Source of the DNA: a virus
DNA: 24,293 nt
Direction: 5' to 3' (one strand)
Virus record (IMG/VR): IMGVR_UViG_3300042385_001582
Location: 1 to 24,293 of that record
The notes below the pieces were generated by a model. The model had not been told where the DNA came from and did no database searches. It saw only the letters and a list, made by a program, of their open reading frames with translations. A program made the translations under genes and the position numbers. Shown in pieces: positions 7,194 to 24,293 of the stretch. Numbering within the stretch: the stretch's first letter is position 1; each line of letters starts with the position of its first letter.

Positions 7194-9347
7194 TTAACAC
7201 GAGCCTAGATTCGTTAAGTTTACTCCGTATATTACAACTACTGTACCTAATTTAGCGCAGAATTGTATTGGTGGTGGTTCTCCAGAAGTACCATCTACGG
7301 TCTCGACATATTCTCCTGCATTATTATCGCAATCAGTATAGTAAGTTTCAATTATATAGTAAGCAGGCGCATTATCGGTATTCCAATCAAGTTGATATGA
7401 TATGCAAGGTAATGGGGTTTCAGTCGGGGTCGGGGTAGGGGTTACAGTAGGCTCCGGGGTCGGAGTAGCAGTCGGGTCCGGGGTCGGGGTAGGGGTTACA
7501 GTAGGCTCCGGGGTCGGAGTAGCAGTCGGGTCCGGGGTCGGGGTAGGGGTTGGAGTAGGAGTGCTTGTCGGGGGCGGGGTAGGGTCTACAGGAGAACCGC
7601 AAGCACCTAAGTCCATTAAGTTTACGCCATAGTCTACCGTTACTGTACCTAGTTTTGCACAGAATACTATTGCAGCAGGTTCACCGGTGGTACTATTGAT
7701 CGTATAATGGAAGTTCTGACCGTTACTGTCGCAATCGGTATAATGAGCGCCGATTTCATAAAACGGCGCTGCATCTGCATTCCAATCGAGTTGGTACGTC
7801 TTACAAGGTAATGGAGTTACAGTCGGGGTTGGAGTAGGTGTTTCAGTCGGGTTTGGAGTAGGGGTTACAGTCGGGGTAGATGTTGGAGTTGATGTTGGGG
7901 TTGGAGTAGGAGTGCCTGTCGGTGGCGGGGTCGGAGTGCTTGTCGGGGTCGGGGTCGGTGTTGGTGTTGAATCCTGTTCGAATATACCAGTTATTGCACA
8001 GTTATCGTACACGTACATAGTGGTATTTGGATTTGTTAAGAATGTAATAATCGGGTTGCCAGAATTAATATACCAGTTTGTAAAGTGGTATCCGGAATCA
8101 GCTACAGCAGCAATCGCATATGTGCCCGCTACTCTATATATAGGATTACCACTACCATCTCCATCTACGCTTACGGAATAACCGCCGGCGCTATTAGAAG
8201 CTTGTATAGAGTATAATACCGGGGTAGATGTAGGCGTCGGTGTCGGTGTAGAGGTCGGAGTCGGAGTGATTGTAGGTGTTGCTGTCGGGGTCGGAGTGAT
8301 TGTAGGTGTTGCTGTCGGGGTAGAGGTCGGAGTCGGAGTGATTGTAGGTGTTGCTGTCGGGGTCGGAGTGATTGTAGGTGTTGCTGTCGGGGTAGAGGTC
8401 GGGGTCGGAGTGATTGTAGGTGTTACCGTCGGAGTCGGAGTAATTGTAGGTGTTACCGTCGGAGTAGGGGTTAATGTAGGCGTAACTGTTGGCGTTGACG
8501 TCGGGGTAGAGGTCGGGGTAGGGGTTATAGTTGGAGTAGGCGTCGGAGTCGGCGTTGCTGTAGGAATTAAAGTCGGGGTAGCTGTAGGTGTTGGTGTCGG
8601 GGTAAGAGTAGGGGTAGAAGTCGGGGTCGGTGTTATTGTCGGGGTCGGGGACGAGGTCGGAGTAGGAGTCGGGGTTAGAGTTGGTGTGGGTGTTGGAGTT
8701 AGAGTAGGGGTAACTGTTGGGGTCGGGCTAGGAGTCGGTGTAACTGTTGGGGTCGGGGTTGGGGTCGGGATGTTTGGTTGGTCCGGCTTGAGAACAGCTG
8801 CTGAAGCTAGATCAACTGTATTGAATAATAAAATTTGACCGGGACTGCTTTTACCCTCTGCGACAATAATCTGGTCGTTGTTAGTGCCCCATGCTCTACT
8901 CTTAATTAAATGTACTGCTTGAAAAATATAACCAGTACTTTCTACAAAAGGATTCTTAGTTAACCAAGGACTTTCAGTATACACTGTAATATCATACGTT
9001 ACTATTTGTAAGCTTGGTATAAGAGTTGCAGATACACTAACTATGTTAATAGTTTCTCCAAAAGGAGCATTATAAAACGTATAATAAAAATTACTTCTAC
9101 TATCAATATGATCAGGGTGTAGTAAAGCTTCTGATAAAGAACAGTACGTATACTTTCTATTATAACTTGTAGGTACTACGTTACCAGAAAGACCAGAAGA
9201 CGCGACTGTGTAGGTTATGTCCCCGATTACATTTGGACCAAAGCTAATAGCACTTGGCTGAAACACAAGCGTAAATGGAGCTACTCCAACGACGTTGGTA
9301 CTGGCTCCTTGCGCGCTAGCTGGAAATGTAAAGGTTGAAATAGACAT
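7194..9347 (-). CDS. Pro/Thr-repeat adhesin-like protein with duplicated Cys domains, 717 aa
   Basis: Order of parts: an N-terminal beta-rich domain (1-190); a 185-residue Pro/Thr repeat (about 191-376); an InlB-B-like domain (about 377-457, with GYHFTNWYI); a second Pro/Thr linker (about 459-511); Cys domain copy 1 (about 513-586); a third Pro/Thr linker (587-645); and Cys domain copy 2 to the C-terminus. Both Cys domains share [19 protein letters not shown] and YGVNL motifs. The start codon overlaps the stop of the 497-residue gene (TAATG), so translation is probably coupled. No catalytic motif is present. The layout of rigid rod linkers with small terminal domains suggests an extended fibre or decoration that presents binding domains. 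Not recognised as a named protein. Confidence 0.88.
7410..7590 (-). repeat. Pro/Thr linker with perfect 54-nt tandem duplication
   Basis: The linker joins the two Cys domains of the 717-residue protein. Bases 7426-7479 and 7480-7533 are identical 54-nt copies (18 residues each, containing [15 protein letters not shown]), and a third copy starts at 7534 and then diverges. Perfect identity with no synonymous change indicates recent duplication or gene conversion. Confidence 0.92.
7810..7972 (-). repeat. Pro/Thr linker, middle block of the 717-residue protein
   Basis: About 53 residues of Thr-Pro repeat with occasional Gly, Asn and Glu, between the InlB-B-like domain and Cys domain copy 1. It belongs to the same hexameric repeat family as the other blocks. 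Confidence 0.88.
8218..8775 (-). repeat. Long Pro/Thr linker with 72-nt higher-order repeat
   Basis: About 185 residues of almost pure Thr-Pro repeat. A 72-nt higher-order unit (30 + 42 nt) occurs at 8281-8352 and again at 8353-8424 with a single base difference; a partial unit precedes it and diverged units follow. The open frame is kept because all units are multiples of three. Confidence 0.92.
8749..8769 (+). other. Predicted G-quadruplex motif in Pro/Thr repeat
   Basis: The plus (template) strand has four G-runs separated by 2-base loops: GGGG at 8749-8752, 8755-8758 and 8761-8764, then GGG at 8767-8769. This fits the standard G3+N1-7 quadruplex pattern. Similar four-run motifs lie at 7474-7495 and 7528-7549. 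They follow from C-rich Pro/Thr codons, and whether they fold in vivo is unknown. Confidence 0.55.
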
Positions 9348-10889: not shown

Positions 10890-12236
10890 TTAAAGTAACA
10901 ACCAACTTGTTCCATTACTATATACTGCTCTTACTACTGCGCCTGACCCTGTGGGGGTAGTACCTAAACTTGTACCAGCAGCTTGATTTGCATCTGTAAC
11001 AAATGCTATACTATATGCGTATGCGTTTGCAGCAGGTAAACTACTAACAATGTAACTTGCAAATATTGTTGGTGCAAATGCAGTTACTAAGAACCCTCTC
11101 ATTATCTCTACGTTTGCAGTAGTAGAGCTGGTAGCAATCATTACTGGTTTTGAAACGCTGCCCGCAGTAGTAGGCTCAACCGATACTGCTGAACCTGATA
11201 CGGTATCAGATAGGTAATAAAATTGACTATCAACAAGCCCGGTAAGACCGGTAATTGGACCAGAGTATATTATAGTAAAACCAGAACCGGTAGCTGATTG
11301 TACTATACCGATTACTTCAGCGTTTGCAGCATTATCAGCTTGAGCTAAAGCATACCCCCCTGAGGTCTTTCTGATTACATCCCCTACTGTAAATGAATTA
11401 CTATAAGTTATGTTTTCCTTAGCTCCGGCTCCACTATAGCCAGATATGCCAGAGTCTCCTGAATAACCAGATGTACCACTATAACCAGATGTTCCAATAC
11501 CACTATAACCAGAAATACCAGAATAGCCTGAAATACCACTGTAACCGGAGTAACCTGAAATACCAGAGTAACCGCTAATACCGGAATAACCGCTTATACC
11601 AGAGTAACCAGAAGTGCCGCTATAGCCTGATACTCCGCTACCACTGAAACCAGATATACCGCTAAACCCGGAGTAACCACTATTACCAGACCAACCTGAA
11701 ATACCCGAATCTCCTGAAAAACCGGAAATGCCACTAAATCCTGATATACCACTATAACCAGATATACCGCTATAGCCTGAATAACCAGAAATACCAGAGT
11801 AACCACTTGTACCTGAGTATCCTGACGTTCCACTATAACCTGAAAACCCGCTTGTACCGGAATACCCTGAAATACCAGAGTAACCGCTAATACCAGAATA
11901 ACCACTTGTACCCATACCGGAGTAACCTGAAATACCAGAATAGCCTGAAGTGCTTACGCCTGAGTAACCACTATAACCAGAAGCTGCTGATGGACCTGCT
12001 GGGCCTGAGTAACCGGAGGTACCGTTTATACCAGACCAACCTGAGTAACCTGATCTACCTGATACCCCCGAGCCGGAATAACCAGAGGGGCCACTATAGC
12101 CACTTGGGCCTGAATAACCTGAAGAACCAGAGTTACCGCTATAACCTGAAGCATTACCACTATAGCCAGATGATCCTGAATACCCGCTCGAGCTCGGGTC
12201 AGCTAACATATTAGAGTTTACTTTTACAAGGGCCAT
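10890..12236 (-). CDS. Collagen-like tail fibre protein (Gly-X-Ser triplets), 448 aa
   Basis: After about 15 residues, positions about 16-270 are Gly-X-Ser triplets dominated by GYS alternating with GIS, GTS or GFS, with a few breaks (GNASG, GMGTSG, GIGTSG). Glycine every third residue is the collagen signature, but proline is rare and Tyr/Ile/Phe fill the X position. Residues about 273-385 form a globular module (FTVGDVIRKTSGGYALAQ, then FYYLSDTVSG, EPTTAGSVSKPVMIA) of a type common in phage tail-fibre proteins next to collagen-like stretches. A last domain (386-448) ends with an SLPAANAYAYSIAFVTDANQ segment. It starts 3 nt after the stop of the 330-residue gene. Probable trimeric fibre with a receptor-binding or trimerising head; the trimer is inferred from collagen-like families. 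Confidence 0.93.
   Translation of the reverse strand: MALVKVNSNMLADPSSSGYSGSSGYSGNASGYSGNSGSSGYSGPSGYSGPSGYSGSGVSGRSGYSGWSGINGTSGYSGPAGPSAASGYSGYSGVSTSGYSGISGYSGMGTSGYSGISGYSGISGYSGTSGFSGYSGTSGYSGTSGYSGISGYSGYSGISGYSGISGFSGISGFSGDSGISGWSGNSGYSGFSGISGFSGSGVSGYSGTSGYSGISGYSGISGYSGISGYSGYSGISGYSGISGYSGIGTSGYSGTSGYSGDSGISGYSGAGAKENITYSNSFTVGDVIRKTSGGYALAQADNAANAEVIGIVQSATGSGFTIIYSGPITGLTGLVDSQFYYLSDTVSGSAVSVEPTTAGSVSKPVMIATSSTTANVEIMRGFLVTAFAPTIFASYIVSSLPAANAYAYSIAFVTDANQAAGTSLGTTPTGSGAVVRAVYSNGTSWLLL
11425..12190 (-). repeat. Collagen-like (Gly-X-Ser)n coding repeat
   Basis: A 9-nt-based repeat encoding Gly-X-Ser triplets, mostly as GYSGIS/GYSGTS six-residue units. Gly, Tyr and Ser codons vary from unit to unit, so nucleotide copies are imperfect although the protein repeat is regular. 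This contrasts with the exact copies in the Pro/Thr blocks. Confidence 0.9.
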
Positions 12237-13236: not shown

Positions 13237-16200
13237 TTATTTAATTAATCCTAAGCCTTTATGTATATAGTAGTTAAAGATAGTTTCTAGAGTACCTTCA
13301 TCTCTAACCCATTCATTATGCCCTGAACCGCTTTCAGATAGAGTGGTATACGGGTCATCCCAGTTAACCAGGCCTTCAACCTGTTGGTTATCAACTACGT
13401 CGTTATATACAAAAAATCTATAATTGTTTATAACTGGAGTTGTTAACCCCCAACCGAAAAACGCACTCAATGGATAAACTGTAAGTGGGAATGTTAATGC
13501 ACTTGCTGGAGCGAAGTAATTTTGTAATCCCCGAGCAGATATAGAACTGTATGACGTAATTACAGGTACTTCTAGTAGCTCGTAGTTTTGAGTGTTAAAT
13601 ATATCATTAGCTACTATTTTTTGACCAGCAGAGACTATTGTGTTACTGACGTTATACGCTGAAAGCTCATTACCTAAATTAATATGTCCTTTAGTAGCGT
13701 CAAAGTTACGATTAAATAAAGAACGTGCACCCCACACGGTGCTTTGCTGAGTTGAATACAGGTCAACCACTCTACTTAATGTTGGTGGTATGTCGTAATC
13801 AAAGTTATCGAGTTCAATGCCTAAAGATTGTGCTAAAGAATAAAATTGAGAGACATTAGCTTTAGAAAGGTCAGCTGTGTTAGGTACAAAGTTAGCTATT
13901 TTTTCAAATACTACCCCACCAAAAGTATCTTCAGATGTTGCGCTCACTCCAGCTACTGCTGGTAGGTAAGTATCGAAAAATACTTCATTTTGATTAATAG
14001 TAGACTGTAAAGCATACTTCTTTAATTGCGTACCATAATCAAAGCCTTGACCGAATTTACGTGCAAAATATGTAGATTCAAAATTTACTACATTAAATGA
14101 ATCACTTGAACCACTAATAGGTTTACTAACAAGTATAGCTGGTTGAGTTCCTATTGTAATAGGATTAAACCCGTTTGAAGGGTTAGCAGATAAGTCTTGT
14201 ATTATAGTTACATTCCCGTTAGATAGCGAAGATAAAGCTAACATACCAACCGAATAAGGGGTGAATGTACCTATATAATAACCGCCGGTGTCTCTACCTA
14301 GGGAGTCAGTACGATGTATAGTGTATACCAAAGAATTACCCGATGTCGGGTTATTACTTGTATTAAATACCGCACTAACAGGATTGACTACATTACTAGA
14401 TAAAGTTACCGTGTAACTGTTAGCACCACTTACTGGGTAGTTTAATAAAGTTTTATCTGATAAAAACGCAGCGGTACCGCTTCTAATTGCGCTATTGACT
14501 GTAGGTACAAAGCGACTTTCAACCCCTGGCCAATAAGTTTCGTACAAAGGTACTTTTCCGTTTAAAGTAAACCCTAAATGATCTGCTGATAAACTCTGAA
14601 CGTAATAGTAAGAAGAAAGACTAACTAAAGTATTAGAATAAGACGGTATATTAATATAATCATAGTCTTGGGTATTAGGTATATTAGATGTGTTTAAGTT
14701 AACCCAGATTGTAGTTGGAGTAGCAGATACCATACCAGTACTACTATTATACGCCATTGAAGGTATGTCATCTATATAATAGAATTCAAAGCTACCTGAT
14801 AGGCCTACTACTACCCCTGTACTCGAAAGCGTCCCAGAGGAAAGAATTCTAATTTCCGTACTACTAATAGGGGTAAACTCGTTTATAATAGCACCATCAT
14901 CTAACGGGCTAGCTGAAACTGTAGTGAATCTCCAACGAGGTCTTAAATTTGCAAGTTGACTTGGAGGTACTTCAGTCCAAGGTTGAGATAAAGAGTTTTG
15001 CGAGTAAAAAGTAAATTTAATGCTTTCGTTATCTCTTATATTAGTAGTATAATAATTTACAGTGAGCGGTACTGGTCCAGCTGAGGCTGTTCCAGACTTA
15101 CTTGATTGATAACCATAAAAACAAGTACCTGAAGTAGGTGTACTACCGCTTAAGTCAGACCACCTACTATAATTCCAAGATAAATTGTCAGCTAGATAAT
15201 TTGTAGCAGAAAGAGTAGATAAAAAGTTTACCGCAGTGACAGTGGTAGAAAATGTACGAAGATACGCAGGAACCGTGTTAGCTGATAGCGAATTATAAAG
15301 CGCTAGCTTTATTTCGTATACTCCTGGCCAGTTATAAATGTGAGAAGGAGAGTACTCCTTACTATATGTACCGTCGCCGAACCACCACACAATATCATAT
15401 ATAGATGTTATTAACGCTTCAGTAGCGCCGGGTATTGCAACAAGAGAGCATGTAAAGGGGGTAGCAAAAACAAATCCAGAAATACCCGCATTTAAAACTG
15501 AATTATTAACTGAAAACCCGAACACATCCTTTGGGGCAACCCAAGACGGAGGAATCGTCGGGGTTGGCGTCGGGGTCACGGTAGGTGTTGGAGTAATTGT
15601 AGGGGTAGGGGTAGGACCTACCGGGGTTTCAGTTGGAGTTGGAGATGGAGTTGCTGTAGGCGCTACTGTTGGAGTCGGAGTAGGTGTTGCTGTGGGTGCG
15701 CCTGGAGTTGGAGTCGGGGTAGGGGTGTGAGTCGGCGCTGGCGTTGGAGTTGGAGACGGAGTAGGTGTTGCTGTAGGAGCAAGTGTTACCGTAGGGGTAG
15801 GAGTCGGGGTAGAAGTTGCGGCCGGGGTAGCTGTGGGGGTCGGGGTCGGAGTAGCAGTCGGTACTAGAGTCGGCGTCGGGGTCGGGGTCGGGGTAGCAGT
15901 CGGATTTGGAGTTGCGGTAGGTGTTGGAGTCGGGGTCGGAGTCGGCGCTATTACAGTTAATGAGAGGGTACTACCGATTTGATTATCAAGACCTACAATA
16001 TTAGAGCCTGTTACTTTAATTGTATATACCCCAGGGGTTAACGTACTAATAGGTAAAATAATACTCCACCCGCTATTAACCGGGCAAGGGAGAACTCCGC
16101 CGTTAGAGTAAGCATTGTAAACATCATTTCTAGTACCACTTAAAGTGGCGCTATGCGAAGATGAAGTGCCGATCGAAGTAATAATTTCAACTGTAACTGC

Positions 16201-16644
16201 AGTAGCATTTACGTACCCAGCACCATACGGTACTAAAGCCCAGCCATTTGAATTAAAAGTAGACGTACCTTGCGCAACACTTACAGATGGAGTGCTAACC
16301 GCAGTGTCATACGAACCGAAAGGGGTGCCTTGGACAGGGACAGGGGTTGGGGTAGGAGTCGGAGTCGGAGTCGGGGTAGCAGTCGGATTTGGAGTTGCAG
16401 TAGGGGTCGGCGTCGGGGTCGCCGGTATAGTAACCTGACTCAAACTACAACCACAAGAGTTAATTATATCACATTCCGGCTGATACGGAAAGCCATACTC
16501 GTCACTATAATCATCAATGCTGTATTGAGTACCACCACAAGAAACGTTCTCTATATGTAAATTTCCGGTGCAATCATACCATTGTACATCGGTAAACCCG
16601 CAACTACAATCTAGTCTCCAAATTGTATTATTATAGCATGCCAT
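13237..16644 (-). CDS. Large baseplate-proximal structural protein with PKD-like domain and Pro/Thr linkers, 1135 aa
   Basis: The protein starts with a Cys-rich domain (1-70; [22 protein letters not shown]) related to the Cys domains of the 717-residue protein. A Pro/Thr linker (72-102), an Ig-like beta domain (about 105-230; [14 protein letters not shown]) and a longer Pro/Thr linker (231-364) follow. Next is a PKD-like domain (about 375-470) with WWFGDGTYS and [11 protein letters not shown], then about 660 residues of phage-specific sequence. The C-terminal part contains [20 protein letters not shown] and ends after a NEWVRDEG motif. Its place after gp6 corresponds to T4 gene 7 (1032 aa), and the C-terminal part may hold that role; I cannot show homology. 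The Cys/PKD/linker part looks like an N-terminal addition projecting from the baseplate. Confidence 0.87.
15553..15950 (-). repeat. Pro/Thr linker, long block of the 1135-residue protein
   Basis: About 133 residues of Thr-Pro repeat interrupted by Ala-, Val-, Gly- and His-containing units, between the Ig-like and PKD-like domains. It is more degenerate at nucleotide level than the blocks in the 717-residue gene. Confidence 0.88.
16338..16428 (-). repeat. Pro/Thr linker, short block of the 1135-residue protein
   Basis: About 30 residues of Thr-Pro repeat between the N-terminal Cys domain and the Ig-like domain. The unit [13 protein letters not shown] also appears in the longer block downstream in the same protein. 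Confidence 0.88.
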
Positions 16645-16887: not shown

Positions 16888-18714
16888 TTAAAAGTTTATA
16901 ATAGAGGTGTTTCTAGTAACTTCTAGCTCAACGACCACTCTTGTCATTAGCTCTTCTATATCGTTTAAATAAACTGTTTCAAAAGGCTTAACGGTAAAAT
17001 TCTTTGTAGTTGATATTATATCGTTTTGCGGGTAAGATGGATTAAATACAATTAGAGATAAACCGTTAGTAGATTGATCTTGATTAGTTGTAGTAATTTG
17101 CTTTACCCCGTCTAAAGCTAAAATACTACCGGTAATATCTGTAAGATTAACGGTAAAGCCTAAGGTAATGTTAATAGGACTAAAGTAAGACTTAAATATA
17201 CTCTGTATTTGATCTTTAATGACGCTTGGCGGTATTTTTGAATCTCTTTGAAGAGTAACAACAAGTCTAGAGTTTGTAATGTCAGCCGGGTCTACTGAAT
17301 CTTTACCGAGACCGATAGTAACTGCTTTATAAACTGGGTCCATTACTATAACTTCTGATGTTAATGTCTTTTTATCATTAACAGAGGAAACAATTAACTG
17401 CTTTTGAGATGGAGTTAAATAGTTTACGTAATTGTTGGTAATAAGCTTTGTAGCTTTAGGTAGAACGTAAACATATACATTATTAAAGTTACAAGCATCA
17501 GCAAAAGCCATTTGATTATAAAGTACTCTATAGTCTTGACCAGGATTAGTTAACCCGATATCATATAGGTATTTTAAGTGACCATTTACATACTCATTAT
17601 TGTTAAGTACTTTAACGTCGTTAATAATATTAGCAAAAGAGTTTTTAATAAACGCTTGGTAGTCAGAAGCAGTAACTACTCTAAATTGAGATCTAAATGT
17701 AGCTGGAGCGTTTGCCCGGATACTTTCAACACTTTCAGCTTCGGTGTATGCAGTGGAAATGTTACTGTTATTAAAATTTAAATTTAACACGTTAGTATCA
17801 TTTAAAATAGTTAAATCTGGACTTATAACGTCTTGTTTAATTAAATTAAACTGAGCAGTAGTGTATATAGTGGCTGATTGACCAGCAAGAGCGTTAGCTT
17901 GTACTTCTCCGTTAATGCCAGAAGATTGAAGATAATATACTGCTACTATGTCATCAGCTACAAGCTGTTGACCGTTAATGTTATCACCAAATTTAATTTC
18001 GTAATTTTTATTACTATTTAAACGTATTTCAAATTTAGTAGCGGTAGCGTTTTCTAAATATAACGACTCCACTCTGCTCCATTTTGCCCATTTTTCTGTA
18101 GTTGTACTTTTTACGTAGACATCAACGTTAAAGTGATCAATAGCAACGTCTGTACCAGGTATTAAGTATACAATTTCATTAGCTTCCCCGCGCGCTACAT
18201 ATAAGGGATACTCTATATAGGTACCTTGATAAAGTAGGTATTGATCTCCTACAGTAGATAAAGTTTCAGAACCAGACATTGTTTTAGTAAACGTAATATC
18301 GGTGTTGAACGATAAGGTAGTATTGTTTGAACGTACAAAAGTGTAACGTGGTATGGTATACGTACCAACCCCTAGAGCATTATTAGCTGAAACACTAAAT
18401 GATAAAGTCGAGGTTTGATTACCAATAGGGGAATAACTAATGAGTTTTACAATTCTGTTAATGTTTTCGTAAATTTGAGAATCACTAAACATAGACTCTG
18501 TAGAAGTTTGATTCAAGTAATACATTAGCGTATGAAATGAGTACGCAATAATATTATTAATAGCTGTTATATTAGAGCCTTCGTAATTTTGATCAGTAAA
18601 TAAGTTAGTCTCGTTTAAACGGGTTTTAATAAATTCTCTTAAAGAGAGAGCATCAAACGCTACATATTCGTTTTTACTGACATTGAGAGATGTTTGATCT
18701 GTAGTAGTATTCAT
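16888..18714 (-). CDS. gp6: Baseplate wedge subunit, T4 gp6-like (baseplate J family)
   Basis: A 608-residue protein (T4 gp6 is 660). gp6 dimers form the inner ring of the baseplate and join neighbouring wedges. Supporting features: an N-terminal helical region (FDALSLREFIKTRLNETNLF, then NIIAYSFHTLMYYLNQTSTE); a central beta domain with KFGDNINGQQL; and the characteristic segment at about 333-356 (ANAPATFRSQFRVVTASDYQ), shared by gp6 and the phage Mu/P2 gpJ family, where a new domain starts after a Tyr/Phe-rich helix. It begins 1 nt after the gp25 stop, the pairing expected for wedge genes. No Shine-Dalgarno is visible, so translation is perhaps coupled to gp25. The assignment relies on motif and neighbour agreement. 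Confidence 0.9.
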   Translation of the reverse strand: MNTTTDQTSLNVSKNEYVAFDALSLREFIKTRLNETNLFTDQNYEGSNITAINNIIAYSFHTLMYYLNQTSTESMFSDSQIYENINRIVKLISYSPIGNQTSTLSFSVSANNALGVGTYTIPRYTFVRSNNTTLSFNTDITFTKTMSGSETLSTVGDQYLLYQGTYIEYPLYVARGEANEIVYLIPGTDVAIDHFNVDVYVKSTTTEKWAKWSRVESLYLENATATKFEIRLNSNKNYEIKFGDNINGQQLVADDIVAVYYLQSSGINGEVQANALAGQSATIYTTAQFNLIKQDVISPDLTILNDTNVLNLNFNNSNISTAYTEAESVESIRANAPATFRSQFRVVTASDYQAFIKNSFANIINDVKVLNNNEYVNGHLKYLYDIGLTNPGQDYRVLYNQMAFADACNFNNVYVYVLPKATKLITNNYVNYLTPSQKQLIVSSVNDKKTLTSEVIVMDPVYKAVTIGLGKDSVDPADITNSRLVVTLQRDSKIPPSVIKDQIQSIFKSYFSPINITLGFTVNLTDITGSILALDGVKQITTTNQDQSTNGLSLIVFNPSYPQNDIISTTKNFTVKPFETVYLNDIEELMTRVVVELEVTRNTSIINF

Positions 18715-18715
18715 A

Positions 18716-19156
18716 TTATAGTAAGCTATATCCCTCTTTGTTCAACATTCCAGGTATAGTTATAGTTTTATTTAATTGTGGTATAACTATACTTAATGTA
18801 ATAGTATACAATTGCTCGTCAATGTCGACATTAACATGTATATTAGTAACCGTTACTCTAGGCTCATATGTAGAGATGCCTTTTAGTATAGTTTCCCCTA
18901 TTCTTTGGGCATTAATGTCGCTAGCAGGTTCAAACACGTACTGTAAGAGATTTAAGCCATAAATCGGATTTAATAAATTCTGACCAGGTAAAGTATTAAA
19001 TAGGTTCAGCAACGAGTTCTTAACCGCTGCTTCGTCATAATCTACAGGTATATCTCTTTGTACTGGATTTGGAAAGTCAAGATGCAGATCAGAGTACAAC
19101 TTTTTAGTGTTGGTAATATCTACTCTCTGTAGATTGTTGAAAGTTACGCTTGCCAT
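18716..19156 (-). CDS. gp25: Baseplate wedge subunit, T4 gp25-like
   Basis: A 146-residue protein of the gp25/GpW-gp25 family (T4 gp25 is 132). gp25 is a core wedge component that contacts gp6 and gp53 and helps start sheath assembly. Features seen: VQRDIPVDYDEAAVKNSLLN leading into helices, the NPIYGLNLLQYVFEP segment, and the family's invariant EPR-V motif at residues 98-101 followed by an amphipathic strand pair (IHVNVDIDEQLYTITLSIVI). The gene opens the left virion operon, is divergent from the 360-residue gene across 52 bases, and is followed after 1 nt by gp6. Older descriptions mention lysozyme resemblance; no muramidase active site is evident here. Confidence 0.93.
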   Translation of the reverse strand: MASVTFNNLQRVDITNTKKLYSDLHLDFPNPVQRDIPVDYDEAAVKNSLLNLFNTLPGQNLLNPIYGLNLLQYVFEPASDINAQRIGETILKGISTYEPRVTVTNIHVNVDIDEQLYTITLSIVIPQLNKTITIPGMLNKEGYSLL

Positions 19157-19208
19157 ACTAATTACTTAGGATTAGGCTGTAAAAGCCATAAGTAATAATA
19201 TATCTTTT
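19157..19208. promoter_or_regulatory. Divergent intergenic region (gp25 / 360-residue gene)
   Basis: A 52-base A/T-rich gap between two outward-facing genes, so promoters for both directions should lie here or in the gene starts. It holds a short GGCT-GTAAA-AGCC inverted repeat and A/T-rich leaders (TAATAATATAT before the plus-strand ATG). I see no convincing T4 late octamer or sigma70 pair and no Shine-Dalgarno in either direction. Confidence 0.4.
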
Positions 19209-20291
19209 ATGAAGAACAGTAAATTTATACCTCTGTACGAAACAATATACGATCGCTATAAGCAAGGCTCAGGATTTCTTCAGGGCGATGTAGTTAAGTT
19301 AAAGAAGGACTACAAATCTGCTGATAGTTACAAAGCTTTACCAGAAATGATAAAGCAACGCTTAGAAGATGCCGAAAAATCAGGTTATAACCTACGTATC
19401 GGTAGATTACACACCCCAAATAATAGTGCCGGTTCTCTAGGCATTAACACAAGTATGCCAGCTACCCATCTTGATCTTTTCCAAGAGCCTTCTCCGGGTT
19501 CCTATGGTAACTTGGTTACTATTCCTATTGACTTAGTTGAATACATAGATACCGGCGTAAACCTACCAGAAGTGTCGTCTAAAAATAAACGTCCAAATAA
19601 AGATTATATTAAGCCAGGTAAATGGAAAGCTAATAAAGACGAACCAGAGACTAAAGAGCAAAATCACTTAGGCCATGAACAAAACTGGATTAAAAAAGGA
19701 GATTACGAATTAGCTACTAAAAACAAAAAACCTTCTGTAGGTGGTAATAGTTATGACGATGAAAAGCCTTCAAAATTTAAGCCTCTTAAAGGTACTAAAA
19801 AATTAACTAAAGAGTCGGTAGGCCTAGAAGGACTCTATATTCAAATGCTCACTGAAGATGTAACTAACGATGTAGATCCACAAGGCTATTCAGTACCAGA
19901 AAAAACTTCAATGATTGAAGAGCGTATGGTTAAACCAGAGTGTTGGAATAAAGAGTCTAGTTGCGTTATGCCAGAATGTATGAATGAAGACGGCTCTGTT
20001 AAAGACGAATGCTGGGCTCCAAACTCTAGCGGCTCAATCCCTGCGGCTCCTGTAGTTCGTGATCCAGAAACAATGGAACAAACTTCTGCCGAGAGCAAAA
20101 CTAAATTAACCGATGAAGCATATGTAAAAAGAACTATGATGCTTGATGATTTTATGCAAGAATTTGAAAGCGACGTGGAGAGCTTAAAAAAAGACTATAT
20201 GAACCATCGCGACCAAAAAGAAGAAGAAGCTCTCTTAAATGCTATCGAATTAATAGCATCCGCTTACGATATTAATATAGTCGATCTTTAA
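19209..20291 (+). CDS. Unrecognised 360-aa phage protein with four-Cys motif
   Basis: A hydrophilic, Lys/Glu/Asp-rich protein without signal peptide or membrane segment. Residues 1-110 look folded: LYETIYDRYKQGSGFLQGDV, then SGYNLRIGRLH and NLVTIPIDLVEYIDTGVNLP. Residues 115-215 are low-complexity and basic/acidic, probably disordered. A cluster of four cysteines, C235-X6-C242-X4-C247-X10-C258, could bind a metal ion. A C-terminal helix (about 300-355, DDFMQEFESDVESLKKDYMN) closes the protein. It is one of two plus-strand genes here; its 3' end overlaps gp44 by 4 nt, and a strong terminator for its transcript lies 80 nt further on. A head-assembly or scaffold-type role is possible from composition, but this is weak inference. 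Function not recognised. Confidence 0.85.
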   Translation: MKNSKFIPLYETIYDRYKQGSGFLQGDVVKLKKDYKSADSYKALPEMIKQRLEDAEKSGYNLRIGRLHTPNNSAGSLGINTSMPATHLDLFQEPSPGSYGNLVTIPIDLVEYIDTGVNLPEVSSKNKRPNKDYIKPGKWKANKDEPETKEQNHLGHEQNWIKKGDYELATKNKKPSVGGNSYDDEKPSKFKPLKGTKKLTKESVGLEGLYIQMLTEDVTNDVDPQGYSVPEKTSMIEERMVKPECWNKESSCVMPECMNEDGSVKDECWAPNSSGSIPAAPVVRDPETMEQTSAESKTKLTDEAYVKRTMMLDDFMQEFESDVESLKKDYMNHRDQKEEEALLNAIELIASAYDINIVDL

Positions 20292-21229
20292 AACTGACTT
20301 AAAGCAATAAGGCAGCTAAAGAAATTGATTTCTTGATCCATAACTAAAGCGCTTCTATATAAAGACTCTGAGACTTGCAGCAATGCAAGTCTTTTTTTGT
20401 CTTCAGTTAAGGAGCTCTTGTAAACAGCATTAAATAGATCTTTAAGTAGTTTAGGGTAATCGTTACCAAATGTTTGCTCGCTTTCAATAACGAACTTACG
20501 TATAGACATTAAGTCGTCTTTAGAAGATAGTTTCTCCAGGATATCTTGTGCGAATCCCTCATTATTAATAGTGGCTTGTAGATTGAGTGTGTTATTAATT
20601 ACACTACGTTGTATGTAGTTAATAATACGTCTTAAATCTGGGTAGTAATAACGGATAACCTCTTTAACTCGGTCTACTTGATCGGCAGCTACTGTAACCT
20701 GCTCCTGCTGTAGGATATAAATTATTCGCTTAGCATATTCCCTAATAGGAGGAGTAAAATCAGTGAAAACTTGACAACGAGATTGAATGGGCTGAATAAT
20801 ACGATGTAAATAGTTACCAGTGAGAATAAAACGGGTATTGCCGGAGTATTCCTCCATAACGTTACGCAACGCTCTTTGACCAGCGTCAGTAAAGTTATCG
20901 AACTCATCCAAAAAGATAACCTTAAGCTTTCCATCCAGACTCTTAGTTTGTGCAAACGTAAGAATGGAGGTACGAACTTCATCAATACCGTTCTTCTCAC
21001 TAGCGTTAATGTACAAGTATTGTGCATCTAAAATCTCATTTATAATAACCTTAGCTAAGGTAGTCTTACCAGTACCTGCATTACCTACTAGCAACATATT
21101 GGGGATCTCTTGCTTACGTCTGCACTCTTCTACAAACGTACGCAGAGTATCAGAGAGAACCATATCGGCCAGTTTAGTGGGCCGATATTTTTCTACCCAA
21201 ATGTTTTGAAGCTGCTCGTTAATTGTCAT
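20288..21229 (-). CDS. gp44: Sliding clamp loader ATPase subunit, T4 gp44-like
   Basis: A 313-residue AAA+ protein (T4 gp44 is 319). With gp62 it loads the gp45 clamp on primer-template DNA for the phage polymerase, using ATP. Motifs: WVEKYRP at 11-17, Walker A GNAGTGKTT at 49-57, Walker B VIFLDEFDN at 104-112, sensor-1 region FILTGNY with Asn139, and the arginine-finger SRC motif at 150-152. The C-terminal helical domain forms the loader collar. Its start overlaps the dut stop (TAATG), so the two are probably translationally coupled. The last codons overlap the convergent 360-residue gene, and its coding DNA at 20371-20398 doubles as a terminator for that gene. No gp62 partner is visible in the window. 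Confidence 0.96.
   Translation of the reverse strand: MTINEQLQNIWVEKYRPTKLADMVLSDTLRTFVEECRRKQEIPNMLLVGNAGTGKTTLAKVIINEILDAQYLYINASEKNGIDEVRTSILTFAQTKSLDGKLKVIFLDEFDNFTDAGQRALRNVMEEYSGNTRFILTGNYLHRIIQPIQSRCQVFTDFTPPIREYAKRIIYILQQEQVTVAADQVDRVKEVIRYYYPDLRRIINYIQRSVINNTLNLQATINNEGFAQDILEKLSSKDDLMSIRKFVIESEQTFGNDYPKLLKDLFNAVYKSSLTEDKKRLALLQVSESLYRSALVMDQEINFFSCLIALSQF
20371..20398 (+). terminator. Strong intrinsic terminator inside the gp44 coding sequence
   Basis: A perfect 9-bp inverted repeat (AGACTTGCA at 20371-20379, TGCAAGTCT at 20384-20392) with a GCAA (GNRA) tetraloop is followed by seven T at 20392-20398. It acts on plus-strand transcripts and lies 80 nt past the stop of the 360-residue gene. 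The same bases encode the DKKRLALLQVSE region of gp44 on the other strand. Confidence 0.9.
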
Positions 21230-21789
21230 TATTCAAGGCGAGCTGGTTTATTATCAACCAGGACTTCGCTAAAGCACTCGAGCTGCTTAAACATATCTTG
21301 ATCAATAGCATCAGACGAACCGAAGCCCTTTTCTCCGCGTTTTGATTCACTCACTACTTCTGTAAACTCAACATTAGCTTGAATAAGCGGATATACAATA
21401 AGTTGAGCGATTTTATCTCCTGCTTTAATTATAACGTCTGTATTACTAAAGTTATAAAGCTTAATACCCATATCGCCCCGGTAAGGGTTATCGATAATAC
21501 CAAAATGAGGGAATACATGCTTTTTGAACCCCATACCCGAACGACCTTCAACTCGGAGCCAGTAACCCGGGGTAATATATGCGAGCTTAAGACCTACTGG
21601 TACAACAGCCCAGGGCTCAGAAATAATACCAGTACCTTCAATTATACCTTTGCCTCTATAAGGAATAGTAACATCCTCTACCGCAGTAACATCCAAACCA
21701 GAGTCTCCAGTATAAGGATCATCGTGGTTGTACTTAGGGAGTACAGCCGAATCATGCGTCATGATAAACTTGAGAGTTACAGGGAACAT
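21229..21789 (-). CDS. dut: dUTPase (deoxyuridine 5'-triphosphate nucleotidohydrolase)
   Basis: Hydrolyses dUTP to dUMP and pyrophosphate, keeping uracil out of phage DNA and feeding dTMP synthesis. All five motifs of the homotrimeric family are present in order: GDSGLDVTA (28-36), GRSGMG (82-87), GIIDNPYRGDMGIKL (97-111, with the catalytic Asp and substrate-binding Tyr expected here), GDKIAQLIVYP (124-134) and RGEKGFGSS (151-159). The 186 residues exceed the usual 140-155, because of extra sequence between motifs 1 and 2 (about 40-60) and a 27-residue tail after motif 5. It follows the 51-residue gene by 9 nt and overlaps gp44 by one base, giving a small replication/nucleotide operon. GAGAGG precedes the ATG by 13 bases, too far for a typical ribosome binding site. 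Confidence 0.98.
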   Translation of the reverse strand: MFPVTLKFIMTHDSAVLPKYNHDDPYTGDSGLDVTAVEDVTIPYRGKGIIEGTGIISEPWAVVPVGLKLAYITPGYWLRVEGRSGMGFKKHVFPHFGIIDNPYRGDMGIKLYNFSNTDVIIKAGDKIAQLIVYPLIQANVEFTEVVSESKRGEKGFGSSDAIDQDMFKQLECFSEVLVDNKPARLE

Positions 21790-21798
21790 AGTGATATA

Positions 21799-21954
21799 TT
21801 AACCTCTCAGTAAAGTTTCTCCACCGAAATTATTATTATTCTCATTAACACCAATAGCTTTGTTAGATTGAAGCCAAGCAATAAGTTGATGAACTTTATC
21901 AGCTGCAATAATGAATGTTCCGTGGCCTTGTACAGTTACAATTACTTCTTTCAT
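21799..21954 (-). CDS. Small 51-aa protein upstream of dut
   Basis: ATG at 21952-21954, TAA at 21799-21801. The product starts MKEVIVTVQGHGTFIIAADK, continues VHQLIAWLQSNKAIG and ends in an Asn-rich tail and GGETLLRG. It looks like a compact beta-beta-helix protein. It lies 9 nt before dut and shares a divergent gap with the gp16-like gene. Without it a 223-base hole would remain in otherwise gapless DNA, which supports it. I recognise no function. Confidence 0.6.
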   Translation of the reverse strand: MKEVIVTVQGHGTFIIAADKVHQLIAWLQSNKAIGVNENNNNFGGETLLRG

Positions 21955-22012
21955 AGTAGCTCTATAATATATTCATTACTTGATAACTCAACTGTTCCCA
22001 TAAATATTCTTA
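21955..22012. promoter_or_regulatory. Divergent intergenic region with candidate promoters
   Basis: A 58-base A/T-rich gap between the leftward 51-aa/dut/gp44 genes and the rightward gp16-like gene. Rightward it holds CATAAATA (21999-22006), one base off the T4 late octamer TATAAATA, ending only 6 bases before the ATG. Leftward there is a sigma70-like pair on the minus strand (TTGAGT, 16 nt, TATTAT) ending about 9 bases before the ATG of the 51-aa gene. Either would give a nearly leaderless transcript. Confidence 0.38.
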
Positions 22013-22630
22013 ATGAATCCTCCGCTACCGGATAGTAAACCGGCTGATAACCAGCAAATCATTGATCAGATTGATACTTTTATAGCTGGTTTGAATCCGC
22101 CCCCTGGAACAACAGTAGCTACCTCGGTGGTTACTAAGACTGTGGGGCAACCTAAGCCAGATGAAATTAAAGTAGAACCACCCAAAACGGATGAAGATAT
22201 GAAGCTTTTTGTTTTAAAGCATAGTGCTGAGTTAGTCGAAAATAGTGTTAAGAGTATAATGGAATTACAAAAGTTAACAGTAGCTACCGGAGATCCTGAA
22301 ATGATGGCCGGATTAGCAAGTTTAATTGCCGCTAGTACTGGGGCAATCGAGACGGTTAATAAGTTACATATTCAAAACAAAAAGTTTGAAGATGCTAAAG
22401 AGCTTAAAAAGATAGACCTTGAGGGCAAGAAAGAAATACAAAGACTTAAGAATGATGGTTATCTTAACCTACCAGCTGGTAATACTAATATACTAGTAGC
22501 TACCCGAGAAGAGATTATTGCACAATTAACCGGTAAGGCTAAAGCTAAAGCTATAGAAGGTACTATTGAGGTGGTGACTCTTTCAGGAGCTGAGCTCCAA
22601 GTTGCGCCTTATGTTGTACCGACGATTTAA
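22013..22630 (+). CDS. gp16: Small terminase subunit-like protein (T4 gp16-like)
   Basis: A 205-residue soluble protein. I assign it by resemblance to T4 gp16 (164 aa), the ring-forming regulator of the packaging motor that works with the large terminase gp17. The stretch at about 100-135 (GDPEMMAGLASLIAASTGAI, then ETVNKLHIQNKKF) matches in pattern the gp16 helix pair ending in LKLHKDMKD. The C-terminal NILVATREEIIAQL, followed by an Ala/Lys helix and EGT, parallels the gp16 end (TVFMGSPTELMDEI, then NGTTD). The N-terminus is Pro-rich and probably disordered. It differs from T4 in having a longer charged helix at 130-155 and in standing alone on the plus strand. There is no Shine-Dalgarno. 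Its 3' end overlaps the convergent lipoprotein gene by 68 bases. The assignment is from memory of the family and moderate. Confidence 0.6.
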   Translation: MNPPLPDSKPADNQQIIDQIDTFIAGLNPPPGTTVATSVVTKTVGQPKPDEIKVEPPKTDEDMKLFVLKHSAELVENSVKSIMELQKLTVATGDPEMMAGLASLIAASTGAIETVNKLHIQNKKFEDAKELKKIDLEGKKEIQRLKNDGYLNLPAGNTNILVATREEIIAQLTGKAKAKAIEGTIEVVTLSGAELQVAPYVVPTI

Positions 22631-23534
22631 TAGATTTGCTATGAGAGTTCCAGAGTACTGCTACTACCATTAATCCTATTACAGTACCAATTACCCACAT
22701 TGGCACCATTATAGCTACATAAGCTAAGCCAAAAGCAGAAATACTGACTCCAAGGAAAGTTATACATTTAAGTAAACCAGCGAGTATTAAGAATAGTATA
22801 CCGACCCCTACTAAAGCTTTAACCATATAGCCAAGCATTTCCTGGCGTTGGGCCTCTCTAGCAAGAGCTACTTTGTCAGCAGTCTCTTTAGAAATACGTG
22901 CTATTTCTATTTTTTTATCTGCTTCAAGTCTTTCAATAGTGTCTTTATTAGCTTGCCGAAGCACGTCTTTCTCTTTTTCTTTTTGTAATATTAAGGCTTC
23001 TGCAGCGTCTAAAGCAATTTTTTGTTTTACAGCTAAATCTATGTTTGCTTTATACTTTATATATAACTCATCAATAGTTTTAGTTTTTTCTTGATCTAAC
23101 TCTTCTTTAATTTTCTCTTTTTGCGTTTCAGTGAGAGGGTCTGCTCTCATCATTATTTCTTTAGAACGTAAATGAGCAATAGTAGTATTAATATCTATCT
23201 TTTTTTTCTCTTGGGTAATTTCGTATACCCCGTAGTTTAACTGACTAATAATATTAAAGTTCTCGTTATCTTTTTTAGTTCTATCGTCATACGCTTTTTG
23301 TAAATCTTCTCTAAATTTAGCATAATCTAATTCCATTTTTTTACGAGCCTCTTCTACTTTTTTATCTGCTTCAGACATCTTAGCGACTGACTCGCTTTCT
23401 TTTTGAGCAGCTACCACAGAATTGCCGGTACTACTACCGGTTAAACTCTTCCATTGTTCAGGCCATTTGACATTAGGGAACATTGCACAGCCAGAAACTA
23501 GTAAGCACATTAAAACCAAGTATATGTAACGCAT
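22563..23534 (-). CDS. Lipoprotein with long coiled coil and C-terminal membrane segments; possible unimolecular spanin
   Basis: A 323-residue protein with a lipoprotein signal: MRYIYLVLMCLLVSGC, lipobox LVSGC at 12-16, and Ala (not Asp) after the Cys, which favours the outer membrane in Enterobacteria. Residues about 43-232 are strongly helical, Lys/Glu-rich coiled coil (SEADKKVEEARKKMELDYAK, EADKKIEIARISKET). Three hydrophobic segments follow (about 239-255, 257-276 and 279-295), then a basic tail (296-323) expected in the cytoplasm. A lipid anchor at one end, a periplasm-long coil and a membrane anchor at the other is the layout of unimolecular spanins (phage T1 gp11), which fuse the two membranes in the last lysis step. 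It is much longer than T1 gp11 and has more membrane segments, so the function is inference; a transport or envelope-remodelling lipoprotein is an alternative. Confidence 0.85.
   Translation of the reverse strand: MRYIYLVLMCLLVSGCAMFPNVKWPEQWKSLTGSSTGNSVVAAQKESESVAKMSEADKKVEEARKKMELDYAKFREDLQKAYDDRTKKDNENFNIISQLNYGVYEITQEKKKIDINTTIAHLRSKEIMMRADPLTETQKEKIKEELDQEKTKTIDELYIKYKANIDLAVKQKIALDAAEALILQKEKEKDVLRQANKDTIERLEADKKIEIARISKETADKVALAREAQRQEMLGYMVKALVGVGILFLILAGLLKCITFLGVSISAFGLAYVAIMVPMWVIGTVIGLMVVAVLWNSHSKSIKSSVQHKAQLGAQLLKESPPQ
22889..22916 (+). terminator. Weak candidate intrinsic terminator inside the lipoprotein gene
   Basis: An 8-bp inverted repeat (TAGAAATA at 22889-22896, TATTTCTA at 22902-22909) with a 5-base loop is followed by seven T at 22910-22916. 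It would act on plus-strand transcripts about 260 nt past the gp16-like stop. The stem has only one G-C pair, so stability is doubtful. Confidence 0.35.
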
Positions 23535-23559: not shown

Positions 23560-24293
23560 TTACAATTTGAAGTCGCTAAATGAGCCTTCGTTAAGAACGT
23601 TATCCACACCCTTTACATAGGATGAGATTTCAGTCTCTTGCGGAGCTACTTGTACTTTCTTGCTATCGTAAAAACTATCTAGCCATCCACCCAGCGGGTT
23701 AGTTTTTGTATCGTATAGCTTCTTAAGGCCTAACGAGTTAAGGCGGTTATTAGCAAGGTACTCTACGTATTGCTTGAGAGAATCAGGGGTAAGACCTACT
23801 AGACTGCCTTTACTAAAGAGGTAATCTACCCACTCTTTTTCAGCCTCTACTGCAGCACGGTAAAACTCATAGATCTTCTCTTCACTCTTCTTATAAGTGG
23901 ATTGAAATCCCTCATCAGGATTATCTCTGAGGTATTTGATAACGTTTTGAGTAATAGCTACGTGAAGGTTTTCGTCACGAGAGATCAAGTTAATGATCTT
24001 AGCATTTCCTTCCATCTTACCTCTATAACCGAAATAGAACGAACAAGCAAACGATACATAGAAGGTAAGCCCTTCCATAATCTGAGTAGCAATAAGAGCT
24101 TCTAAGATTTGTTCTTTAGGGTCTTTAGTATTACCCATTAAAGCATCGTATTTGCTAGTTAAGAAGTTAGCACGCTTTACAATCTCTTTATCTTCGAGAA
24201 TCGAATCAAAGAATTTTGTAGCGTCTGGGTAAACGTTCTGAAGAATGTAGGTATACGAGTTACTATGGATAGTCTCAAAGAAAGACCATACAT
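23560..24293 (-). CDS. nrdB: Ribonucleotide reductase class Ia small subunit NrdB (partial, N-terminus beyond window)
   Basis: The frame enters from the right edge and gives the last 243 residues. NrdB carries the di-iron tyrosyl-radical cofactor that drives reduction of ribonucleotides by NrdA. Visible in the fragment: the ETIHSNSY segment with iron ligands Glu6 and His9 and radical Tyr13 (E115, H118 and Y122 in E. coli); Glu73 in MEGLTFYVSF (E204); and Glu107/His110 in SRDENLHVAI (E238/H241). Spacing between the last ligands equals that of E. coli; the Glu6-Glu73 interval is about 22 residues shorter. The C-terminus ISSYVKG...SFSDFKL matches the conserved tail that docks into NrdA. The Met at 24138 is internal, not a start. 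nrdA is not in view and may lie to the right. The lipoprotein gene starts 25 nt after the stop. Confidence 0.97.
   Translation of the reverse strand, partial: VWSFFETIHSNSYTYILQNVYPDATKFFDSILEDKEIVKRANFLTSKYDALMGNTKDPKEQILEALIATQIMEGLTFYVSFACSFYFGYRGKMEGNAKIINLISRDENLHVAITQNVIKYLRDNPDEGFQSTYKKSEEKIYEFYRAAVEAEKEWVDYLFSKGSLVGLTPDSLKQYVEYLANNRLNSLGLKKLYDTKTNPLGGWLDSFYDSKKVQVAPQETEISSYVKGVDNVLNEGSFSDFKL

Follow-up and report, generated by a model that had tools for sequence, protein, structure and literature searches.

Where does transcription end when two genes converge so closely that their stop codons overlap? This question is raised by a 24,293-base virus record (IMG/VR IMGVR_UViG_3300042385_001582), which was analyzed at its full length and is called the window below. 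In it, a gene for a protein of 360 residues (p360) converges with a gp44-like clamp loader gene, and the 4-nt overlap of their stops described in an earlier sequence-only reading was found at 20288–20291. The window derives from a group of uncultured phages that are probably tailed. A megablast search of cultured phages with positions 18500–22500 returned no match, and hence no near DNA relative, and the search of bacterial genomes gave only 4 matches, with identities of 24–25%. The gp44 protein matches PHROG 168 (clamp loader; E 2.9e-72) and also Pfam AAA, and shares 35–38% identity with its counterparts in the listed cultured phages. No family was found for p360 in Pfam or PHROGs; its neighbours are gp25 and a baseplate wedge protein, which its position and a match to PHROG 219 mark as gp6-like.

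Past the p360 stop, in antisense within the 3' part of gp44, the plus strand holds a hairpin followed by a run of T (Table 1). Judged from its sequence features and their conservation, we read this element as the intrinsic terminator of plus-strand p360, with a probability of roughly 0.85. The arms of the stem are AGACTTGCA (20371–20379) and TGCAAGTCT (20384–20392), only 4 of the 9 to 10 pairs are G-C, and with the G-U pair that G20370 is able to form with T20393 the predicted free energy on the plus strand is −13.9 kcal/mol (20368–20393). The site thus has the stem-loop and the U-rich run on the transcribed strand that characterize intrinsic (Rho-independent) terminators, and it lies 3' of a gene on the same strand, at a distance (79 nt) outside the reach of a terminating ribosome. 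The previous description of a perfect 9-bp stem, a GCAA tetraloop and seven T was correct, except that the first T doubles as the final base of the stem, leaving six T free. The hairpin is indeed inside gp44 and near its C-terminus, though not right at it, residues 280–287 of 313 lying 26–33 residues before the end. RNA polymerase would stop at the hairpin and T run, and the benefit would be a defined 3' end of the p360 mRNA and less read-through antisense to gp44 and the dUTPase gene. That the hairpin limits antisense transcription of gp44, as also suggested before, is plausible.

Table 1. Features of the p360/gp44 region, in coordinates of the window.
Feature	Position	Strand	Description
gp25/p360 divergent region	19157..19208		52 bp; one outward-facing TAAGTAAT per gene, at 19161-19168 (-) and 19189-19196 (+)
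p360	19209..20291	+	convergent gene, 360 residues; its transcript is thought to be the terminated one
gp44-like clamp loader subunit	20288..21229	-	313 residues; codons 280-287 hold the putative terminator in antisense
Spacer from p360 stop to hairpin	20292..20370	+	79 nt, within the gp44 coding sequence
Stem-loop of the putative terminator	20371..20392	+	9-bp stem, GCAA tetraloop 20380-20383, optional tenth G-U pair 20370/20393
T run	20392..20398	+	seven T, the first one paired; antisense to the Lys278-Lys279-Arg280 codons

A scan of both strands between 10000 and 24293 identified 16 terminator-like sites, as compared to 8.3 ± 2.8 in shuffled sequences, and the hairpin in gp44 has the most pairs of all. 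When the gp44 codons were shuffled such that the protein and the codon counts were kept, a comparable antisense site, defined as any antisense hairpin of at least 8 perfect pairs with a T run, arose in 2 of 5000 trials, and a chance origin is therefore unlikely.

To assess conservation, gp44 relatives were searched with peptide patterns located outside the hairpin, and the best 80 of 89 loci were taken (79–100% identity). The hairpin is present in all 77 of these loci that reach the site, and its arms are perfect in 74 of them, corresponding to 52 of 55 distinct genes. Two of the exceptions (L043 and L055) show one G-U pair on the plus strand, while the third (L070) combines one G-U pair with one mismatch beside the loop. 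A retrieval based on p360 yielded 77 loci, 9 of which fall short of the site; the arms are perfect in 65 of the remaining 68, and the three imperfect hairpins are on the same three contigs as before, the two retrievals sharing most of their contigs. A terminator-like site was detected on the plus strand at this position in all 55 distinct genes of this clade, compared with none in antisense in the middle of gp44 and 5 on the gp44 strand of the same region.

We then determined whether the bases or the encoded residues are conserved. A codon alignment was made of the 55 distinct genes of at least 600 nt (from 78 including the window), and a tree was built from the same genes with codons 277–288 left out, kinship being handled only by parsimony counts on this tree. 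Synonymous diversity averages 0.385 over 205 conserved degenerate columns. In the stem, it is 0 at Arg280, Leu281, Gln285 and Val286, 0.036 at Ala282 and 0.141 at Leu284, whereas Leu283 in the loop (0.395) and Ser287 (0.453) resemble the rest of the gene. The six stem codons underwent 5 changes on the tree, 4 of them at Leu284, while amino-acid-matched columns gave 50.6 ± 9.3 and none of 100,000 matched draws fell below 17. At the free positions, 8 codon changes (Leu283) and 6 (Ser287) were counted. Only 9 of the 205 columns are without change on the tree, and five of these are Lys278, Arg280, Leu281, Gln285 and Val286. The expectation that a double constraint would depress synonymous variation at this site was thus strongly borne out.

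Since the peptide RLALLQV is invariant across the 77 loci, the protein together with codon bias might be held responsible for this pattern. However, the codons held are uncommon ones: Val286 is GTC in 55 of 55 genes, while GTC makes up 8.5% of the Val codons elsewhere in these genes, and AGA (55 of 55) and CTG (51 of 55) account for only 17.2% of the Arg and 11.5% of the Leu codons elsewhere. As the low number of changes at the stem codons relative to columns matched for the amino acid also contradicts it, an explanation by protein and codon bias alone is practically untenable. The loop and the T run follow the same pattern. The loop is of the GNRA type on the plus strand in 53 of the 55 genes (GCAA in 40, GTAA in 13), and Leu283 is encoded by TTR in 98%, the highest value among 25 conserved Leu columns. 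Lys278 is AAA in all 55 genes; for Lys279, 43 genes use AAA and 12 use AAG, a codon that shortens the T run and turns the tenth pair from U-G into C-G. Conservation therefore tracks the stem, the loop and the T run, not the protein.

The codon phase offers a reason why these bases are frozen. The octapeptide RLALLQVS (residues 280–287) can be encoded in 248,832 synonymous ways, of which 48 give a perfect 9-bp stem, all of them with one and the same pair of arms. Each wobble base of the stem is opposite a base that the protein fixes, so that a perfect stem can be maintained only by staying unchanged; only the loop and the flank are free to drift. With a single arm pair available for this peptide, freezing rather than compensating change is the expected signature. 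Consequently, looking for compensating synonymous changes in close relatives, which had been proposed as a check of the hairpin, is uninformative here, as such changes cannot keep the stem perfect.

The inverted repeat folds on the gp44 strand as well (−12.2 kcal/mol), and the hairpin could accordingly act in the gp44 mRNA as a stability, processing or ribosome-pausing element, with the T run being incidental. This is very unlikely in view of the features that distinguish the two strands. Both the invariant AAA of Lys278, which holds the T run, and the GNRA loop concern the plus strand. The tenth pair exists on the plus strand only (U-G) in the 43 genes with AAA at Lys279, and on both strands in the 12 with AAG. 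Moreover, the change of Leu284 from G to A in L043, L055 and L070 leaves a G-U pair on the plus strand but a C-A opposition on the minus strand. L070 also holds one change that is tolerated only on the gp44 strand, and on either side these are few independent events.

A palindrome may also be a site in the DNA itself, bound by a protein or used in replication, packaging, recombination or homing. The repeat is palindromic in DNA, genes were inserted adjacent to it in L053 and L070, and each of the 6 larger records examined contains it once when up to 2 mismatches are allowed, a count that rules out a repeated element. A duplex site, however, would need neither a flanking T run nor a GNRA loop, and the 16 stem bases were encountered outside gp44 in 6 of 80 stretches (80 of 87), with other loops and in other contexts, which by estimate is about what chance could produce in a collection of this size. 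We regard a DNA site as highly improbable and retain termination of the p360 transcript as the best explanation.

The position of the hairpin relative to the p360 stop agrees with this function. The spacer was measured in 73 of the 77 clade loci (convergent ORF of at least 100 aa) and is 51–119 nt long in 71 of them, 239 nt in L063 and 248 nt in L010, with a minimum of 51 nt over all 73. In the account of the E. coli terminator tR2 given in PMC4824070, termination is repressed near the stop codon and maximal beyond about 27–30 nt. Given this distance effect and the overlapping stops, an efficient terminator of p360 would fall inside gp44. In L010 and L063, the embedded hairpin is still kept, with 162 and 153 nt, respectively, between the stops of p360 and gp44.

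The hairpin also stays where another plus-strand gene is located between p360 and gp44, namely in L053 and L070; it is weakest in L070, at −9.1 kcal/mol (median, −12.8 kcal/mol), where the gene order is unchanged. The inserted genes are on the p360 strand (L053, 4928–5503; L070, 625–1314), and the protein encoded in L053, from its letters, presumably resembles a GIY-YIG homing endonuclease. In the p360 family, the N-terminal part is conserved and the C-terminal part (19860–20291 in the window) varies strongly between relatives, all of which keep the hairpin where their sequence reaches it. The 3' end of p360 beside gp44 looks like an exchange site.

Upstream of p360, the motif TAAGTA[AT] was found in the region shared with the divergent gp25. 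All 33 distinct sequences of this region have a copy that faces gp25. A copy facing p360 is present in 31 of them, and the two that lack it (L237 and L240) have a longer divergent region. In the window, 4 of its 11 occurrences begin 11–20 nt upstream of a predicted start, including those upstream of 6951 and 23534 (minus strand), while the 8-mer TAAGTAAT itself is not over-represented in the window (3 occurrences vs 3.9 expected). The motif may resemble T4 late promoters and is a candidate late promoter of this phage. From this motif, p360 would be transcribed late, and it is probably a late gene.

A late p360 transcript that ends at the hairpin would overlap gp44, an arrangement that calls to mind oop RNA of phage lambda. 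Its terminator tO sits in the C-terminal part of cII (PMC5869508), so that the hairpin ending one phage transcript is placed in antisense near the 3' end of the coding sequence of a convergent gene, as is proposed here. The transcripts differ, however: oop, according to the same paper, is small, has a promoter of its own, represses cII and overlaps it by 52 bases, whereas a p360 transcript terminated in the window would be a protein-coding mRNA and overlap gp44 by about 110 nt. The element also does not end a short non-coding RNA of the tO/oop type, as a conserved ORF of 360 residues precedes it. By analogy, the terminator might serve to set an antisense tail of ∼110 nt on the late p360 mRNA, which would pair with the end of the gp44 mRNA and switch gp44 off late as oop does with cII, the codon phase guarding the end of the tail; we consider such a role doubtful.

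In order to trace the element beyond the clade, more distant relatives were collected. A profile of p205, the plus-strand member of a second convergent pair in the window, retrieved 16 remote loci (L364–L379), 15 of them with a gp44 at 43–49% identity to that of the window and one (L370) without gp44. In 10 of the 15, gp44 has a p360 relative as its neighbour on the opposite strand, and in 6 gp25 follows on the far side of this relative; the p360 match of L364 is found in another place. With a profile of these gp44 proteins, the best 80 of 553 loci, 40–50% identical to the gp44 of the window, were obtained, and 79 were scored (L438 was omitted, as its gp44 runs off the contig). Among the loci retrieved, none has a gp44 with an identity between 50% and 79%. 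The convergent layout is widespread among them. Convergent ORFs, called mechanically (at least 50 aa), end between −112 and +35 of the gp44 stop in 75 of the 79 loci, and the longest one overlaps this stop in 67. The p360 profile matches 49 of the 80 loci, in 48 on the opposite strand, and in 44 the matching ORF ends beside the gp44 stop.

A terminator-like hairpin on the p360 strand was detected in only 6 of the 79 remote loci, against all 55 distinct clade genes under the same rules (at least 7 pairs, −8 kcal/mol and 5 of 8 T, by which interrupted stems or Rho sites would be missed). Embedded sites are not enriched in these 79 loci, with 6 in antisense as compared to 11 in the gp44-strand control and 3 in the middle of gp44. 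L455 and L459 have their hairpin in the space that separates the two stops. L439, L451 and L453 have A+T-rich terminator-like sites inside gp44. L458 and, in the earlier remote set, L377 possess hairpins of a different sequence within gp44, about 74 and about 72 nt beyond the convergent stop, respectively; given the lack of enrichment over the controls, we do not claim convergent evolution of embedded hairpins. In L424, L425 and L427, hairpins of the opposite sense followed by T-rich sequence occur within the convergent ORF at about +76 past the gp44 stop, looking like end points of the gp44 transcript.

The convergent layout is thus older than the embedded terminator, which is probably a gain in this clade; its loss elsewhere is possible instead. 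As most remote relatives share the layout without a recognizable intrinsic terminator, such a terminator is dispensable in general. The proposal that the overlapping stops left no room for a separate terminator accordingly gives only part of the reason, since stops overlap in most remote loci and yet few have a terminator. The stem was never lost within the clade, whereas at 40–50% gp44 identity, loss of the stem with the gene order kept, which the sequence-only reading had named as evidence against its view, does occur and makes the feature clade-specific.

Embedded terminators are also not a general rule for convergent genes, as remote gp44 relatives mostly do without one. In the second convergent pair, the 3' ends of p205 (plus strand) and p323 (minus strand) share 68 nt (22563–22630), and even by looser criteria sites were found in only 9 of 36 distinct regions, scattered and at differing positions. 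A plus-strand hairpin at 22889–22909, which the scan rules for this pair exclude, was set aside as weak and A+T-rich (−4.8 kcal/mol). Likewise, a second inverted repeat, located in the 5' part of gp44 (21163–21187, codons 15–23), was considered as a plus-strand backup terminator and dropped, as its T run is not kept. It folds in most of the 47 members of the clade whose sequence extends over it, with some paired changes, and is possibly an mRNA element. Elsewhere in the window, an ORF for the ribonucleotide reductase small chain (23560–24138, 192 aa) matches only positions 140–281 of the 281 of the Pfam profile and may be split or shortened. The large ORFs at 7194–9347, 10890–12236 and 13237–16644 contain long Thr-Pro or Gly-Tyr-Ser repeats and perhaps encode tail or fibre proteins.

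Comparable layouts are known from bacteria. As described in PMC7154746, transcripts of convergent bacterial genes can overlap at their 3' ends, as the convergent genes would here; the site in the window differs in lying wholly in coding sequence with a T run on one side. In Rickettsia, most of the convergent transcripts examined show no termination at a specific site, according to PMC3027695, and such pairs may resemble the remote relatives described above. Cultured T4-like phages possess a homologous clamp loader subunit gp44, but in three annotated T4-like records the genes that come after gp44 run in its own direction, and these phages lack the KKRLALLQV peptide. We found no account of this embedded element in a search of open-licence papers, although one may well exist. 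Arrangements of this kind are known; here, sequence conservation documents one unusually well, and termination is predicted.

Taken together, the same stretch of DNA here encodes a protein in one direction and, most likely, a transcription stop in the opposite one, and the stem has a single solution once the protein is given. This case shows why covariation tests can fail for elements located within genes, and terminators of this type in uncultured phages can be located through the freezing of particular synonymous bases. The layout shared with remote relatives that mostly have no terminator makes the gain of the signal open to testing. If the late-promoter reading is true, p360 would be a late gene whose polymerase heads towards the replication genes.
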